64,000 nt of DNA. Source: Buttiauxella massiliensis. Lineage in GTDB: Bacteria > Pseudomonadota > Gammaproteobacteria > Enterobacterales > Enterobacteriaceae. A program made the translations under genes and the position numbers. The DNA is taken from contig NZ_LR722650.1 of the NCBI RefSeq assembly GCF_902500225.1, positions 62,001 through 126,000 of the forward strand, written 5' to 3'. Shown in pieces: positions 55,445 to 62,800 of this stretch (the stretch's first letter is position 1; every line of letters starts with the position of its first letter). The notes below the pieces were generated by a model. It made no database searches. It was not told the DNA's origin and was given only the letters and a program-made list of their open reading frames with translations.

Positions 55445-55654
55445 GTGGTGTGCGGTGAGAGGCAGGAGTCTCTCATCAATCCCTATGAGCTTCCATCAGT
55501 AGTGGCCTTCCTTAGACCCAACCCTTCTGGACGCTGCGTTCAAATCTGTGCTCGGCAGATTTGTTGGGTGATTGAGCGTGACCAACAAAGAGGCAGCTCG
55601 CGAAGGACGATAGGTAGAAACAATGGAATTAGGATCAGCGAACACACTTTATGA
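55445..55654 (+). pseudogene. Unrecognised reading frame, possible gene remnant
   Basis: A 69-codon frame follows the PACE gene, containing LPSVVAFLRPNPSGRC and QQRGSSRRTIGRNNGIRISE. Its composition is higher in GC than the AT-rich DNA that follows, and it stops exactly where the first adhesin repeat unit begins. I do not recognise the product. It could be the tail of a phage-related small gene, or a chance frame. No good ribosome site was found. Confidence 0.25.
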
Positions 55655-55973
55655 GCCGCAGGGATTTTAAAGTATTATTAATTAATAACGAAATTAAGTG
55701 GTTAAAAATAGTAAAATATAATTAAAGGTTGTGGTGTTTTTTGCCGATTAAAAAACGATTAATTAATTGCTCTCTTAAATCCTTAAATTAGATTAATAAA
55801 TTACTAATTGTATGGGTTTGAATGTTGTTACTTCAGCAATGCGAAGTATCTTTATAATAAACAGAAGTTTATCTAGTGCTGGATTTATCATCATCAATGC
55901 GACGAACAGGTAATAAGTATGTGCATATGCCTCTGATTTGTCGCCATAAGAGGTATTTTAAGAATCTCACTAC

Positions 55974-56001
55974 TTGAAACCATTTAGAAATCACGTATCG
56001 T
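55974..56001 (+). promoter_or_regulatory. Promoter of adhesin gene 1
   Basis: TTGAAA and TATCGT are 16 bp apart. The box is preceded by TTTTAAGAATCTCACTAC, a block found before all four genes. It lies 85 bp before the start codon. Confidence 0.5.
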
Positions 56002-56085
56002 GTTTTACTTAGTAGTAAATATTTTTTTTCGCCCTCAAACAATATTGATTTGCTGAGTTATTATTTAAACAATAGTGAAACCCAT

Positions 56086-57063
56086 ATGACGATAAAAAGG
56101 TTTTTTTTACTATGTTTTCTACTGTTGTTAGCCACAATAATATTGTCTATTCCTAAGCCAGCGCAAGCTTTTAGCTGCACCTCTGCTGGAGTCAACGTCG
56201 GGGGGGCTGGGACTTTCAACATTCCGGTTAACGTAACGCTAACAAGGTCGGGGGATGGTTTTATCATTACCGATCTTGCCCAGTACACCACCTGTAATGG
56301 ATACACTGGTGCGTCTTATTATGATGCACTGCGCATCTACGATATGAGTATTTCGCCACTGTTTACAGCAAAAGGCTACTCGGGTTTTGTCATAGCCGAT
56401 ACCATCCAGATGAACGCCCCAATAGGCATTTCCTGCGTTTGGCCAAATACGAAGTGCGGTAATCTTGGATATATTACCTCACCGCTGAAAATTAAAATTG
56501 GCATGCGAAGTACCTCTTTAGTGACGCAAGGAATTACCATCCCCCAGGGTACGGAAATTGCCAGTATCAGTGTGCAACAACGATCTTTTAGCACCTGGGG
56601 CTGGAATAAAATCTGGAAATTTGTTTTAGCCAGCCCTCTGGTCATACCCAGTTATACCTGCAATGCGACCATGCCTGACTCGGTAACTACGGTGACATTG
56701 CCGCCGGTTGATGCTGCGGCCCTTCGCTACGGCGGGGGTGGCAGGTACTCGGGGGCAAAAAAAACATTTTACATCACTTTGGAATGCGAACCTGAAACAC
56801 TCGTTTCCGTCACCTATAGCGCAAGCACGATGTCAGGAAGGAACGATGTTCTCCTGAATACCACGCCGGGTAATAACAACGTGGGAATTCAGGTCTTTTA
56901 TGGATCTAACGTACTCACTTTTAACGGACCCGACACACCATTCATAGCTAGCGCGTTGTCTACCCAAACCCTCGCTTATGACGCGTATTATTATTACAGG
57001 GATGGCGGTGTGCGCGGCGGGCTGGTGACAGCTTCCGCAGTCTTCACTTTTAATTATAAATAA
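56086..57063 (+). CDS. Fimbrial-adhesin-like two-domain protein, copy 1
   Basis: The ATG at 56086 (MTIKRFFLLCFLLLL) gives 325 residues and aligns with the starts of the other copies; an earlier ATG at 56050 is not conserved. The signal peptide ends at PAQA near 28. The N-terminal domain (about 29-190) begins FSCTSAGVNVGGAGTFNIPV and is probably receptor-binding. The second half, from PSYTCNATMPDSVTTVTLPPVD, has the pilin pattern: two Cys, a Gly-rich strand, NTTPGNNNVGIQVF, and a C-terminal strand AVFTFNYK with penultimate Tyr. This is the layout of FimH-like tip adhesins. No chaperone, usher or major pilin gene is adjacent. The exact family is not known to me. Confidence 0.75.
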   Translation: MTIKRFFLLCFLLLLATIILSIPKPAQAFSCTSAGVNVGGAGTFNIPVNVTLTRSGDGFIITDLAQYTTCNGYTGASYYDALRIYDMSISPLFTAKGYSGFVIADTIQMNAPIGISCVWPNTKCGNLGYITSPLKIKIGMRSTSLVTQGITIPQGTEIASISVQQRSFSTWGWNKIWKFVLASPLVIPSYTCNATMPDSVTTVTLPPVDAAALRYGGGGRYSGAKKTFYITLECEPETLVSVTYSASTMSGRNDVLLNTTPGNNNVGIQVFYGSNVLTFNGPDTPFIASALSTQTLAYDAYYYYRDGGVRGGLVTASAVFTFNYK

Positions 57064-57115
57064 AGTGTTTCGGGTGGTGTGTTAAGTTCCGCTACCGTTC
57101 ACTTCACTTTTCTCT

Positions 57116-57152
57116 AAGCCCTGTATCGGCTGTTTAATCTGATACAGGGCTT
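57116..57152 (+). terminator. Hairpin after adhesin gene 1
   Basis: The arms AAGCCCTGTATC and GATACAGGGCTT pair perfectly around a 13-bp loop, 53 bp after the stop. The T run is short. Confidence 0.65.
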
Positions 57153-57164
57153 ACTGCATTATAT

Positions 57165-57214
57165 TTTCCGGGCAATGATAAACAGTCTCGGAACTAACAG
57201 TAGTATGCTGCCAT
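57165..57214 (-). pseudogene. Relic of the tam 3' end, copy A
   Basis: Fifty bases match the end of the intact tam gene (62051-62100) at 47 positions, in the same orientation. In frame they still read GSILLL...PRLFIIARK. The match begins at TTTCCGGGCA and ends at CTGCCAT, with unrelated sequence on both sides. It is a leftover of duplication next to tam. Confidence 0.85.
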
Positions 57215-57373
57215 TAATCCCTCTTCAATAGCTAACACTTTTTCCAAGCCGCAGGGTTCTTGAGGTATTACTATTTGATAACGAAACCAGGTGGTTAAAA
57301 AATAGTAAAATATGATGAGGGGGATTTAATGTGTCTTGTAAATAAAGATCGGAAGATAAATGTTTTTCTTTTA

Positions 57374-57387
57374 ATCCAAAATTGGAT
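57374..57387. promoter_or_regulatory. Conserved palindrome before adhesin gene 2
   Basis: ATCCAAAATTGGAT is a near-perfect palindrome about 195 bp before the promoter. The identical 14-mer recurs at 58981-58994 (gene 3) and 60564-60577 (gene 4). A degenerate version is at 55779-55793 (gene 1). It may bind a shared regulator. Confidence 0.45.
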
Positions 57388-57568
57388 TAATAAATCCTGG
57401 ATTGTATGGATTTAATATTATAACCATCAGTGGTGCGAAGTATTTTTATGATGAACAAAAGGTTATCCATCATTTGGGTTGTCGTTTTTAATACGTCGAA
57501 CCGGTAATGAATATCTATAGATGCCCTTTGATTTGTCGCCATAAGGGATATTTTAAGAATCTCACTAC

Positions 57569-57596
57569 TTGAAACCATTTAGAAATCACGTATCGT
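57569..57596 (+). promoter_or_regulatory. Promoter of adhesin gene 2
   Basis: TTGAAA-N16-TATCGT is identical in boxes and nearly in spacer to the gene 1 promoter. It lies 88 bp before the start codon. Confidence 0.5.
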
Positions 57597-57683
57597 GGTT
57601 GACTTATTGTTGAATAATATTTTTTCTTACCCTCAAATAATACTGATTTGCGCAGTCATTATTTAAACAATAGTGAAGTACAT

Positions 57684-58670
57684 ATGATGATAAAAAGGCT
57701 GTTTTTACTATTTTACTTATTGTTATTAGCCACAATAATACTGTTTATCCCTAAACCAGCACAGGCTTTTTACTGTACCTCTGCTGGAGTCTCAGCCGGC
57801 GGAGCGGGGACTTTCAATATTCCGGTTAACGTCACGCTAACAAGGTCGGGGGATGGTTTTATCATTACCGATCTTGCCCAGTACACCACCTGTGGTGGGG
57901 CGACAGGTGCATCTACATATGACGCACTGCGTATCTATGATATGAGTATTTCGCCACTGTTGATGGCAAAAGGCTACTCGGGGTTTGTCATAAATGCCGA
58001 TAGCACTCAAATCAACGCTCCAGTAGGAATTTCCTGCGTTTGGCCAAATACGCAGTGCGGTAACCTTGGAAATATTACCTCACCGCTGAAAATTAAAATT
58101 GGCATGCGAAGTACCTCTTTAGTGACGCAGGGAATTACCATCCCCCAGGGGGCGGAAATTGCCAGTATCAGCGTGCAACAACGATCTTTTAGCACCTGGG
58201 GCTGGAATAAAATCTGGAAATTTGTTTTAGCCAGCCCTCTGGTCATACCAAGTTATACCTGCAATGCGACCATGCCAGATTCGGTAACTACTGTAACATT
58301 GCCGCCGGTTGATGCCTGGACCCTTCGTAACGGCGGTGGCGGCAGGTATTTGGGGGCAAAAAAAACCTTTAACATCCTTTTAGATTGCACCCCCGAAACC
58401 ATTGTTTCCGTTGCCTATACTGGAAGCACGATGTCAGGAACGGATGATGTTCTCGTTAATACCACTCCGGGCAATGACAATGTGGGAATTCAGGTCTTTT
58501 CTGGATCTAACGCGCTGACATTCAATGGACCAGAAACACAAATCATGAGCAGCGCTTTGGCGAGCCAAACCTTAGCTTATGACGCATATTATTATTACAA
58601 GGATAACAATGGCGGTGTGCGCGGCGGGCTGGTGACAGCTTCCGCAGTCTTTACTTTTAATTATAAATAA
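57684..58670 (+). CDS. Fimbrial-adhesin-like two-domain protein, copy 2
   Basis: The ATG at 57684 (MMIKRLFLLFYLLLL) gives 328 residues with a signal peptide ending PAQA. It is the closest relative of copy 1. A central block from SPLKIKIGMRSTSLVTQG to TTVTLPPVDA is almost unchanged, while the surface-like stretches before and after it differ. The C-terminal pilin-like domain ends AVFTFNYK, as in copy 1. It carries three more residues than copy 1, in INADS and KDNNGG insertions. The same AT-rich leader and 3' flank show that copies 1 and 2 arose by duplication. Confidence 0.75.
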   Translation: MMIKRLFLLFYLLLLATIILFIPKPAQAFYCTSAGVSAGGAGTFNIPVNVTLTRSGDGFIITDLAQYTTCGGATGASTYDALRIYDMSISPLLMAKGYSGFVINADSTQINAPVGISCVWPNTQCGNLGNITSPLKIKIGMRSTSLVTQGITIPQGAEIASISVQQRSFSTWGWNKIWKFVLASPLVIPSYTCNATMPDSVTTVTLPPVDAWTLRNGGGGRYLGAKKTFNILLDCTPETIVSVAYTGSTMSGTDDVLVNTTPGNDNVGIQVFSGSNALTFNGPETQIMSSALASQTLAYDAYYYYKDNNGGVRGGLVTASAVFTFNYK

Positions 58671-58722
58671 AGTGTTTCGGGTGGTGTGTTAAGTTCCGCT
58701 ACCGTTCACTTCACTTTTCTGT

Positions 58723-58759
58723 AAGCCCTGTATCGGCTGTTTAATCTGATGCAGGGCTT
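58723..58759 (+). terminator. Hairpin after adhesin gene 2
   Basis: This is the same hairpin as after gene 1, with one G-U pair (GATGCAGGGCTT in the second arm). Confidence 0.6.
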
Positions 58760-58771
58760 ACTGCATTATAT

Positions 58772-58821
58772 TTTCCGGGCAATGATAAACAGCCTCGGAA
58801 ATAACAGTAGTATGCTGCCAT
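58772..58821 (-). pseudogene. Relic of the tam 3' end, copy B
   Basis: This second 50-base copy of the end of tam matches 62051-62100 at 47 positions. It shares two of the three changes seen in copy A (AATGAT and CAGTAG), so the two relics share a common origin. It lies 32 bp before the start of the third unit. Confidence 0.85.
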
Positions 58822-59151
58822 TAATCCCTCTTCAATAGCTAACACTTTTTCCAAGCCGCAGGGTTCTTGAGGCATTACTATTTGACAACGAAACCAGGTG
58901 GTTAAAAAATAGTAAAATATGATGAGGGAAATTTAATGTGTCTTGTGAATAAAGGTCGTAAGATAATTTTTTTTCTTATAATCCAAAATTGGATTAATAA
59001 ATTCACGAGGTAATTATCATTATTTACGTGGTGCCAGGTATCTTTGTGATAAATATAAGATTAACCAATTTTCAATGCGTTGTACGGGTGGGGAATATTC
59101 GCACATGACGGCTGACCCGTTGCCGTAAACATTTTTTAAGAATCTTACCAC

Positions 59152-59179
59152 TTGAAACTGTTCAGAAGTGACTTAATAT
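59152..59179 (+). promoter_or_regulatory. Promoter of adhesin gene 3
   Basis: TTGAAA-N16-TAATAT is preceded by TTTTTTAAGAATCTTACCAC, a variant of the shared block. It lies 90 bp before the start codon. The palindrome at 58981-58994 lies 157 bp upstream. Confidence 0.5.
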
Positions 59180-59268
59180 CGCTAAGTCATGCATTACCTA
59201 CTCCTTCCTTTTAAATCGTATTTCCCTATACTGGGTTAATGTAATTGTAACGAAACTAGTGAACTCAT

Positions 59269-60270
59269 ATGATGATAAAAAGACTGTTTCGACTATTTTT
59301 CTTGCCGCTGTCAGTCACAATAATGCTTTTTATCCCTAAAAGCGCGCTGGCTTTTACGTGTTATAGTAATGGCCAGTCTGTCTATAATGGAGCGGCGACT
59401 TTTGTCGTGTATGTTGATCCGGTTGTTTTGGATAAAACAGTTGATAAGATCATTATCAGTGACATGAGCAAGTACGCATCATGCAAAGGCTCAACGGGGC
59501 CGACCTTTAAGGACGCTTTAACTGGCATACCTGCAGACATCTCACCAACCTTTGCCAAACTTGGTTATGAAGGTTATTTTGAGAGTGGTGGTGAGGATAA
59601 TTCATTTTTGCAAAGTACCTGTTTCTGGCCCGATAACAAATGCACCATTTCTAGTACTGATAAAGAAATTACACTGCCCATTGACGCGAGAATTGGTCTT
59701 AAGCGAGTCGCTCCCGGTGACTGGAATAATGCGGAAGATCTGCCTGCGGGTACTGAAATCGCCAGAATTTATGGGGAAATGCGGGGTATGGGGGCATGGC
59801 AACCTAGCTGGCGATTGACCTGGGTCTTTAAACTGGGTGCCCCCGTGGTTATACCTCGATATACCTGTCAGATTGAAAGGTTTGATAATGACGTTACCCT
59901 GCCGAGTATTGACCGTGAGGATTTACGTCACAAAGGGGATGGGCGAATTGATAAGGTGACTAAAAGTTTCCGCATGGATTTAAGCTGCGCGTCCGGGACT
60001 GGGGTATCGGTAACCTTTAACGGCACTAAAATGCCTGATAAAGATGATGTTTTAGCCAACACGACGCCCGGTAATGAAAATATAGGCATACAGATAGTCT
60101 CTGGCAGCACACCCGTTAAGCTGGGCGTCACTAACGAGGTGATTGAAAGTTCCCAGGAGCACGAATCACTCAATTACAACGCCTATTATTACTACAACGG
60201 TAAGGATTTAATGGATGTACACGGTGGGCTCATCACGGCCAGTACGGAAGTGATCTTTGATTATAAATAA
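59269..60270 (+). CDS. Fimbrial-adhesin-like two-domain protein, copy 3
   Basis: The 333-residue protein starts MMIKRLFRLFFLPLSVTIMLFIPKSALAFTC, with a signal peptide ending ALA. It has the same plan as copies 1 and 2 but is clearly divergent from them. The N-terminal domain has FTCYSNGQSVYNGAATFVV and STCFWPDNKCTISS. The C-terminal domain begins PRYTCQIERFDNDVTLPSIDREDL and has NTTPGNENIGIQIVSG, NYNAYYYYNGKD and a final strand STEVIFDYK. It forms a close pair with copy 4. Secretion and assembly probably depend on a chaperone-usher system encoded elsewhere, if it is assembled at all. Confidence 0.75.
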   Translation: MMIKRLFRLFFLPLSVTIMLFIPKSALAFTCYSNGQSVYNGAATFVVYVDPVVLDKTVDKIIISDMSKYASCKGSTGPTFKDALTGIPADISPTFAKLGYEGYFESGGEDNSFLQSTCFWPDNKCTISSTDKEITLPIDARIGLKRVAPGDWNNAEDLPAGTEIARIYGEMRGMGAWQPSWRLTWVFKLGAPVVIPRYTCQIERFDNDVTLPSIDREDLRHKGDGRIDKVTKSFRMDLSCASGTGVSVTFNGTKMPDKDDVLANTTPGNENIGIQIVSGSTPVKLGVTNEVIESSQEHESLNYNAYYYYNGKDLMDVHGGLITASTEVIFDYK

Positions 60271-60756
60271 CGTATTCGGTTTTCAGCGAAATTAGCAGCA
60301 TGTGAGGGCGTTGCCTGCCAATGAATGAGCTTTAACTGCGAACTTCCTTCTTGAGTGGCAGGTGAAAGAGTTAATGGATAACTGCGCCCGGGTGTTTACT
60401 TGTGAAATGTTAAATATAATAGTTTGTTAATGTTGGCATTAATTTACAATCTTGAGAGCCAGATATTTAATGACAGTGCCGGGTTGTTAAAAATGGTAGG
60501 CAATGTGCAAATATAAATACCCCACCTGTTAATAAGAGGTTGATGATTAATTCTTTTCTTAAAATCCAAAATTGGATCAATATATTATTGATTTCGTGGA
60601 GGGGTGTGTAATTGTTTGAATGATGTCAGTTTTCTGTATTATAAACATAAAAATAACTACGTTGAAGTTTTTAGTGTTTAATGCTTTGAGCCGGTAATAA
60701 GTAAGTGCGCAAGATATCTGACTTGCCCACAACGAATATTTTAAGAATCTCACTAC
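60271..60756 (+). other. AT-rich leader between adhesin genes 3 and 4
   Basis: There is no open frame of interest. The palindrome ATCCAAAATTGGAT is at 60564-60577. A stretch near 60486-60510 resembles the GGTTCTTGAGG/GGTGGTTAAAAA part of the unit start but is degraded. No tam relic is present here, unlike the two preceding gaps. Confidence 0.5.
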
Positions 60757-60784
60757 TTGAAATCATTTAGAAATCCAGTATTAT
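60757..60784 (+). promoter_or_regulatory. Promoter of adhesin gene 4
   Basis: TTGAAA-N16-TATTAT is preceded by TTTTAAGAATCTCACTAC. It lies 93 bp before the start codon. Its -10 box is the closest of the four to consensus. Confidence 0.5.
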
Positions 60785-60876
60785 ATTTTCATCTGTAGCC
60801 TGATTTATTCTCTCCCTCCCATTTAAATTATATTGATCTGTTTAGTTAATATACTTGTAACAATAGTGAAATACAC

Positions 60877-61878
60877 ATGATGATAAAAAGACTGCTTTTG
60901 CTATTTTGCTTACCATTGTTAGCCACAACAATGCTGTTTATCCCTAAAAGCGCGCTGGCTTTTACCTGTTATAGTAATGGTCAGTCTGTCTATAATGGAT
61001 CGGCGACTTTTGTGGTAATTGTCGATCCGATAGTTTTGAGTAAAACAGTTGATGAAGTTATTATCTCCGACATGAGTAAGTACGCATCATGCAAAGGTTC
61101 ACCGGGGCCGAGGTTTAAGGACGGTTTAAAGGGCATACCTGCTGATATTGCCCCCACCTTTGCCAGACTTGGCTATGAAGGCTATTTTGTGAGTGGTGGC
61201 GAGGAGTTTAGCTTTTTGCAAAGTACCTGTTTCTGGCCCGATAACAAATGCACCATTAGAGGTTCTGATGCAGAAGTTACACTGCCTATAGACGCGAAAA
61301 TTGGTCTTAAGCGAGTCGCTCCCGGTGACTGGAATAATGTGGCAGATATACCAGCGGGCACTGAAATTGCCAGAATATATGGAGAAATGCGGGGTAGTGG
61401 GGTATGGCAGCCTAGCTGGCGAGTGACCTGGGTCTTTAAACTGGGTGCCCCCGTGGTTGTACCTCGATATACCTGTCAGATTGAAAGGTTTGATAATGAC
61501 GTTACCCTGCCGAGTATTGACCGTGAGGATTTACGTCACAAAGGGGATGGGCGAGTTGATAAGGTGACTAAAAGTTTCCGCATGGATTTAAATTGTGTGT
61601 CCATGACTGGGGTATCGGTAACCTTTAACGGCACTAAAATGCCTGATAAAGATGATGTTTTAGCCAACACGACGCCCGGTAATGAAAATATAGGCATACA
61701 GATAGTCTCTGGCAGCACGCCCGTTAAGCTGGGCGTCACTAACGAGGTGATTGAAAGTTCTCAGGAGCACGAATCACTCAATTACAACGCCTATTACTAC
61801 TACAACGGTAAGGATTTAATGGATGTACACGGTGGGCTCATCACGGCCAGTACGGAAGTCACCTTTGATTATAAATAA
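60877..61878 (+). CDS. Fimbrial-adhesin-like two-domain protein, copy 4
   Basis: The 333-residue protein starts MMIKRLLLLFCLPLLATTMLFIPKSALAFTC. The C-terminal half is almost identical to copy 3, with only a handful of changes (DLNCVSMTG for DLSCASGTG, TEVTFDYK for TEVIFDYK). The N-terminal domain differs at many more positions (for example VIVDPIVLSKTVDEVIISD and SGGEEFSFLQ). This fits a conserved anchoring domain with a diversifying binding domain. It is the last gene of the array, followed by the converging tam. Confidence 0.75.
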   Translation: MMIKRLLLLFCLPLLATTMLFIPKSALAFTCYSNGQSVYNGSATFVVIVDPIVLSKTVDEVIISDMSKYASCKGSPGPRFKDGLKGIPADIAPTFARLGYEGYFVSGGEEFSFLQSTCFWPDNKCTIRGSDAEVTLPIDAKIGLKRVAPGDWNNVADIPAGTEIARIYGEMRGSGVWQPSWRVTWVFKLGAPVVVPRYTCQIERFDNDVTLPSIDREDLRHKGDGRVDKVTKSFRMDLNCVSMTGVSVTFNGTKMPDKDDVLANTTPGNENIGIQIVSGSTPVKLGVTNEVIESSQEHESLNYNAYYYYNGKDLMDVHGGLITASTEVTFDYK

Positions 61879-62044: not shown

Positions 62045-62800
62045 TCAAGATTTCCGGGCAACGATAAACAGTCTCGGAAATAACAGCAGTATGCTGCCAT
62101 CCTTCTGCGGAGGGTAAGCCTGTTTTAATCGCTGATGGTAGCGTTCAAGAAACGACTCCTGTTCGATGGCATCGAGGTTTGCCAGATAAGGCCGTAAACC
62201 GGTAGAACTCAACCATTCAATAATCGCCTGTGCTGATGGCATTACGTGGAAATAGGTTGTACGCCAGATATCCACCGCACAACCCGATTGTGCCAGCAAA
62301 TCGTAATACTGTTGTGCAGGTAACAACGCTTCTCGCCCGGAGTCAGGGTTCCCCAATTCAGCAGCGACCTGGCGCATTAATGTATGCGTTGGCTCCTGCC
62401 AATTATCCGGCATTTGCACCGCTAAAACTCCATTTTCGGCAAGCTGAGCCGCCAGGTGGGGAAACAGTTCTGGATGGTTGCTTACCCACTGCAATGACGC
62501 ATTAGCATAGATAACATCTTGCTTTACCGCCGGCGTCCAGGATGTCACATCAGCCTGTTCAAACTGGCAATTGGGCAGGGCGGCGCGAGCTTTTTCCAAC
62601 ATCGCCGGAGAGCTATCGATGCCGGTCACAGTTGCATCCGGAAAGGCCTGATGCAGTAAAGCGGTACTGTTGCCTGGGCCGCAGCCTAAATCGGCAATAT
62701 GTTTTGCGTCGGGGTGTTGAATGCGCGCGGCGAGTTCTGCTGCCGGGCGCGTACGTTCAGCTGCAAACTGCAAGTAAAGCGCGGGGTTCCAGTCCTGCAT
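62045..62800 (-). CDS. tam: Trans-aconitate 2-methyltransferase Tam
   Basis: The 251-residue SAM-dependent methyltransferase (252 in E. coli) begins [27 protein letters not shown]. Motif I is [15 protein letters not shown] (35-49), with [22 protein letters not shown] and [26 protein letters not shown] after it. It methylates trans-aconitate, an inhibitory by-product of the citric acid cycle. It converges on the adhesin array. Its final 50 coding bases are duplicated twice inside that array (57165 and 58772). Confidence 0.95.

Follow-up and report, generated by a model that had tools for sequence, protein, structure and literature searches.

The receptor specificity of a pilus is thought to come from the tip gene of its own operon. 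In the stretch of 64,000 nucleotides of the Buttiauxella massiliensis genome analysed here (contig NZ_LR722650.1, positions 62,001 to 126,000; hereafter the window), four genes for candidate fimbrial tip adhesins follow one another at a distance from any fimbrial operon. This raises the question of which pilus, if any, such adhesins would serve.

Four tandem adhesin genes and their surroundings

The original prediction described a row of four secreted proteins with a FimH-like layout, and this description was borne out: the region 56086-61878 holds four frames on the forward strand, all free of internal stops. Gene 1 (56086..57063) encodes 325 aa, gene 2 (57684..58670) 328 aa, and genes 3 (59269..60270) and 4 (60877..61878) 333 aa each. 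The start at 55654 that had been assigned to the array corresponds to the edge of the repeated upstream region and not to the edge of a gene. The signal peptides, judged by eye, end in AQA or ALA in all four proteins and are followed by Phe; the mature adhesins thus begin with Phe and carry Cys at position 3 and at 42 or 44, with another Cys pair at 89-90 and 96-97. All of them end with a penultimate Tyr and have Gly 14 residues from the end. A signal peptide combined with the penultimate Tyr and Gly at -14 is what we take to be the motif of two-domain chaperone-usher tip adhesins. Identity is 85% between genes 1 and 2, 88-89% between genes 3 and 4, and 38-42% between the two pairs.

In a profile scan of the four proteins, the C-terminal domain of three matched the Fimbrial family PF00419 above the cut-off (gene 2, 3.4e-9; gene 3, 6e-10; gene 4, 4.1e-10). 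No PF00419 match was obtained for gene 1, the assignment of which rests on its reading frame, its identity to the others, the terminal motif and a predicted model, which aligned with pilin subunits despite the absent match. Because folding adhesin 1 at full length gave a poor model (pLDDT 56), the lectin domain was folded separately; a lectin domain model was obtained for adhesin 4. The structure prediction that had been proposed for the N-terminal domain returned a lectin of the FimH/FmlH type, and the C-terminal domain was modelled as an incomplete pilin domain, the absence of which had been named as an outcome that would speak against the idea. The NCBIfam FimH equivalog was absent among the matches of the four adhesins up to E 10. 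On the strength of the pilin domain, the FimH-fold lectin domain in the models and the terminal motif, we assign the four proteins to the two-domain chaperone-usher tip adhesins; linkage to a chaperone and an usher is usual for this protein type, yet non-essential to it, and is lacking beside the four window genes. The dN/dS ratios of the close pairs were 0.24-0.35 in both domains, which suggests that the window adhesins are maintained.

A promoter of its own had been predicted for each adhesin gene, and the upstream regions agree with this. Four occurrences of the block TTTTAAGAATCTYACYACTTGAAA were found in the genome (at most 3 mismatches), one upstream of each window adhesin gene, and neither the opposite strand nor the backward sequence gave any occurrence in the whole genome. 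The putative promoter blocks, located by the genome motif search, lie on the forward strand at 55956..56002, 57551..57597, 59134..59180 and 60739..60785 for genes 1 to 4, respectively. In front of gene 1 the block consists of a conserved 24-mer, a TTGAAA box, 16 bases and TATCGT, the -35 and -10 elements being read by eye, and the TTGAAA box starts 112-120 bases 5' of the ATG in the four genes. The G+C content of the adhesin upstream regions is 29-37% vs 50% in the window. Two further modes of control were considered: among 23 inverted repeat pairs, none matched around each promoter block was seen that would point to phase-variable promoter inversion, and Pap-like GATC pairs were unsupported by the upstream GATC counts of 0, 1, 0 and 2.

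Copies of a 50-base tail of a methyltransferase gene lie behind gene 1 (57165..57214) and gene 2 (58772..58821), each 94% identical to 62051-62100, which implies that the array expanded by in-place duplication. Hence, the notion of a stand-alone tandem bank holds as far as the detachment of the four genes is concerned, while their tandem repetition reflects local duplication. Across the domains of the close adhesin pairs dS ranged from 0.07 to 0.44, a spread that may result from gene conversion. Hairpins with stems of 13-14 bases, 100% and 93% complementary, are located behind genes 1 and 2 (57115-57153 and 58721-58761) and are possible terminators, as judged from their sequence.

As predicted, no chaperone, usher or shaft pilin gene was found next to the four adhesin genes in the window. 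All usher matches and all above-cut-off chaperone matches in the genome were on contigs other than that of the window, and the same contig carries, about 135 kb away, one sub-threshold chaperone match with two stops.

An adhesin-less pilus operon and further detached adhesins in the same genome

A chaperone-usher operon lacking an adhesin had been suggested as something to look for in this genome, and the profile search of the contigs revealed one such operon among the four that contain an usher. It is located on contig C21 (259.1-263.1 kb; hereafter the C21 operon) and consists of intact pilin, chaperone and usher genes; the adhesin-size last subunit is missing, and neither an adhesin nor a remnant of one was found behind the usher. 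The C25 operon is a complete type 1 operon with its own FimH (620 bits vs the equivalog cut-off of 472), and an adhesin-size last subunit is present in the remaining two operons, on C21 (246-252 kb) and C1. Compared with B. noackiae, the usher, chaperone and pilin of the C21 operon had dN/dS values of 0.08, 0.12 and 0.25, by which they are under purifying selection.

The best NCBIfam models of the C21 usher and chaperone were PRK09828 (685 vs the cut-off of 830 bits) and PRK09926 (255 vs 285 bits), which we take to be HtrE and EcpD of the Yad system. The C21 operon thus resembles Yad of E. coli (yadN-ecpD-htrE-yadMLK-yadC), but both proteins score below the curated cut-offs, and the linked tip is missing from the C21 operon, with candidate tips encoded elsewhere. 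By sequence, the operon is related to Yad and we do not class it as Yad. The YadC tip has two domains, one of which is a lectin domain (PMC13245861).

Two side observations concern the flanks of the C21 operon. Behind the adhesin-less usher there is a stretch that looks transposase-like by eye (L026:7090-8170), and its B. noackiae counterpart holds a broken adhesin. Between a LuxR-type regulator gene and the pilin operon, a secreted-looking 167-aa frame (L026:1024-1527) is kept in B. noackiae (75% identity, dN/dS 0.19), and it had no NCBIfam or Pfam match.

The window adhesins are not the only detached ones. An intact adhesin gene on C23 (340.0-341.0 kb) stands behind a chaperone gene without an usher, another on C21 (296.6-297.8 kb; C21c-type) stands alone, and a third detached gene on C21 (369.6-370.8 kb) is broken by an internal stop. 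With the four window genes, the genome contains at least six intact detached adhesins, and more lone adhesins may exist in it, as searching the whole genome with PF00419 did not pick up the window genes. The claim that the tips come without a chaperone therefore applies to the window genes but not to the C23 adhesin, which travels with a chaperone of its own. For two C23-type adhesins, matches to MrkD-like lectins did not reach the cut-off.

Detached adhesins and one usher class in relatives

Window-type adhesins were matched in 23 of 392 family genomes at E 1e-8 or better and in nine, including B. massiliensis itself, at E 1e-25 or better; the contexts of the latter were read. Five genomes carry surely lone window-type adhesins: our own (4), Kosakonia sp. 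S29 (2), Phytobacter massiliensis (1), P. ursingii (2) and P. diazotrophicus (2). Had the homologues always been members of complete chaperone-usher operons, the idea of a detached bank would have suffered, but in four of the eight other genomes with close homologues (E ≤ 1e-25) all were lone genes. The closest homologue outside our genome, in Citrobacter sp. Awk 4 (G104:C6), is encoded immediately after an usher that shares 60% identity with the C21 usher; the second adhesin of that strain meets a contig end on the would-be usher side and was left out of the lone count, so that the figures below use five genomes and seven loci. In G012, G376 and G387 window-type adhesins lie inside operons, and those of G376 and G387 have FimD-type ushers resembling the type 1 usher, so that the descent of the pilin domain points to more than one usher. 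The weaker matches numbered 15 in 14 genomes. At 14 of the 15 matches an usher, or in one case part of one, was inside the stretch read (13 beside a FimD-type usher, one with a partial usher close to a contig end). In G082 the match adjoined part of a chaperone; 8 kb of context contained no usher, and the genome had no class usher at E 1e-240. Adhesin 3 matched no records in the plasmid and E. coli collections, and a search for relatives by peptide patterns gave 42 stretches, none of which was confirmed.

The lone window-type adhesins at L067-L070 and L073 include four places (L068-L070, L073) with an agmatine deiminase/amidohydrolase neighbourhood. Four Phytobacter/Kosakonia genomes share one conserved slot for lone window-type adhesins, which indicates that the detachment is old and stable there. 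A different slot, beside a gene for a dipeptide/peptide-type ABC transporter ATPase (L203, L204, L071), holds lone C21c-type adhesins in Phytobacter and a window-related one in Citrobacter sp. Awk 4, and may be a hot spot of tip genes.

At E 1e-25, C23-type adhesins were present in 4 of the 392 genomes. In 20 chosen genomes they occupied 12 places at E 1e-30; in 11 of these the adhesin followed its own chaperone with no usher in the fetched stretch, and in the twelfth, in Kosakonia sp. S29, the chaperone-adhesin pair closes an operon of the C21 class. The C21c-type was searched for in the same number of chosen genomes, outside of which lie the 22 usher loci used for contrast below, and was found at 13 places in seven of the 20: seven intact and lone, two behind a class usher, two broken and two fragments at the ends of B. 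noackiae contigs. P. ursingii, G012 and a Citrobacter have C21c-type adhesins behind C21-class ushers. Among 12 Buttiauxella genomes, the C21-class usher and C21c-type adhesins were found in the same two, and the ten without this usher had no C21c-type adhesin. P. ursingii contains nine detached adhesin copies. All three sorts of adhesin (window, C23 and C21c) also occur directly behind C21-class ushers in relatives.

An usher at least 54% identical to the C21 usher was present in 10 of 392 family genomes. All five genomes with surely lone window-type adhesins (hypergeometric 3e-9) and all four with C23-type adhesins (2e-7) were among these ten; both figures are uncorrected for descent, and since the positive genomes represent few lineages (Buttiauxella, Phytobacter/Kosakonia), they overstate independence. 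At 22 other class loci, one per genome, an adhesin-family frame followed the usher in every case (21 frames of at least 340 aa and one of 204 aa, L123), whereas the seven class loci in genomes with detached tips had two intact linked tips (P. ursingii, Kosakonia C20), one broken (B. noackiae) and four none. The contrast of 22/22 with 2/7 gave a Fisher p of 0.0002, the 204-aa frame being one of the 22. Among 24 named class loci, partly overlapping with the genomes of this contrast, the adhesin was behind the usher in 17, broken in one, before the pilin in one and absent in five (Kosakonia, P. massiliensis, P. diazotrophicus, one Edaphovirga contig and Entomohabitans).

In a pilin-domain tree of 67 rows built by a quick method, the C23-type group (support 97) and the C21c-type group (99) each included operon-linked tips of the class. 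The window group (99) contained one class-linked tip and two tips of FimD-type operons, the latter split off at support 87, and the second Citrobacter sp. Awk 4 tip fell outside it, among other class tips. A side finding concerns the shaft: in P. diazotrophicus (G274:C6, L108:9667-13627) six tandem shaft-pilin genes precede the chaperone and usher genes, with no adhesin behind, which suggests that the shaft can multiply too in this system.

Candidate partners of the detached adhesins

We consider it probable, judging by gene content and genome comparison, that the window adhesins are interchangeable tips supplied in trans to the adhesin-less C21 pilus. The four tip adhesins, multiplied in tandem next to the methyltransferase gene, would, once exported, be bound by a chaperone in the periplasm and be loaded onto the C21 usher in trans, one per fibre tip, and the C21 shaft pilin would complete the adhesin pilin domain through donor-strand exchange. 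The window four, the C23 adhesin with its own chaperone and the C21 adhesin at 296.6 kb would then provide a single pilus with six or more intact alternative tips. We infer the loading in trans, the single tip per fibre and the choice of tip via separate promoters. The combination of a tipless operon, detached tips that are kept and multiplying, purifying selection and class-linked relatives of all three sorts favours tips acting in trans, and the bank of alternative tips for a distant fimbria, as originally proposed, is thus the best reading of the locus. We counted several observations against C21 as the partner. The promoter block is absent from the C21 operon; B. noackiae has the C21 usher at 92% identity and no window-type adhesin; G082 has a weak window-type match and no class usher at E 1e-240; in P. 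ursingii and one Kosakonia operon a linked tip persists alongside the detached ones; and Entomohabitans and one Edaphovirga contig, which lie outside the detached-tip search, have adhesin-less class operons. In addition, exchange between fimbrial clusters by trans-complementation in general does not occur, as stated in the accessible part of PMC3373541.

The main rival explanation is that the window genes supply the complete C25 type 1 operon with additional tips, in competition with its own FimH. In its favour, the lectin domain resembles those of FimH/FmlH, the window clade has at its base two tips encoded in operons with FimD-type ushers, and C25-type operons are common in the family. We nevertheless regard this as unlikely, because the C25 operon already owns a FimH, the closest full-length homologue lies next to an usher of the C21 class, and lone copies track that class, whereas the type 1 class is widespread without them. 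The sequence similarity to FimH and FmlH of type 1 and F9 pili is marginal (FmlD, E 0.017 and 0.09), and the window adhesins differ from them in the second Cys pair at about 89-97, the four tandem copies and the absence of a linked operon. It would be a little less plausible still that the C21 pilus is a tipless homopolymer, with the lone adhesins being either remnants or shared among several ushers, none of which is a dedicated partner. A homopolymeric fimbria needs only three genes, and such clusters are known outside Salmonella, according to the portion of PMC3373541 available; decay of detached and linked tips is also seen, in the broken C21c-type copy here and the broken linked tip of B. 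noackiae. The intactness of the four genes and their dN/dS values argue against this reading, as do the growth of the repertoire to nine detached copies in P. ursingii and the co-occurrence with one usher class. Finally, the absence of assembly genes beside the four adhesins would suit secreted or surface lectins that do not depend on an usher, and a non-fimbrial use of the fold had been offered as an option. This we hold to be very improbable: the adhesins retain an incomplete pilin domain with a pilin-type C-terminal strand, a domain that requires a chaperone and a donor strand in the chaperone-usher pathway, and their presence follows one usher class.

Supply of tips in trans to the C21 pilus would have a partial precedent in Bordetella, where, according to the accessible text of PMC12952627, the sole fimBCD system serves structural genes scattered over the chromosome. 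Both cases involve one chaperone-usher machine and unlinked structural genes; as far as that text goes, Bordetella has unlinked shaft subunits and a linked tip, and the arrangement here is the mirror image, with a linked shaft and unlinked tips. The C23-type chaperone-adhesin pair resembles Salmonella stb and E. coli 987P, in which an added chaperone is paired with the distal subunit (PMC3373541, in the part available), but differs in having no usher in the fetched stretch at 11 of 12 places. The accessible portions of the E. coli and Salmonella surveys report no orphan ushers (PMC3559732, PMC3373541). A description of unlinked tip adhesins was not found in the open-licence literature as far as its text was accessible, a weak negative, given that subscription papers lie outside this scope. 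Thus, unlinked shaft subunits that share one machine are known, and unlinked tips may be new.

We lean towards the view that a branch of enterobacterial pili abandoned the rule of one operon and one tip in favour of a dispersed and growing repertoire (six intact tips here, nine detached in P. ursingii), some members of which have private chaperones and the window four their own promoters, so that the pilus could be re-aimed without building another. If this is true, a detached library of tips on one machine would be another route to changed pilus binding, and surveys based on usher operons would overlook most adhesins of such genomes. These adhesins would also offer natural cognate sets of tips for asking what ushers recognise.
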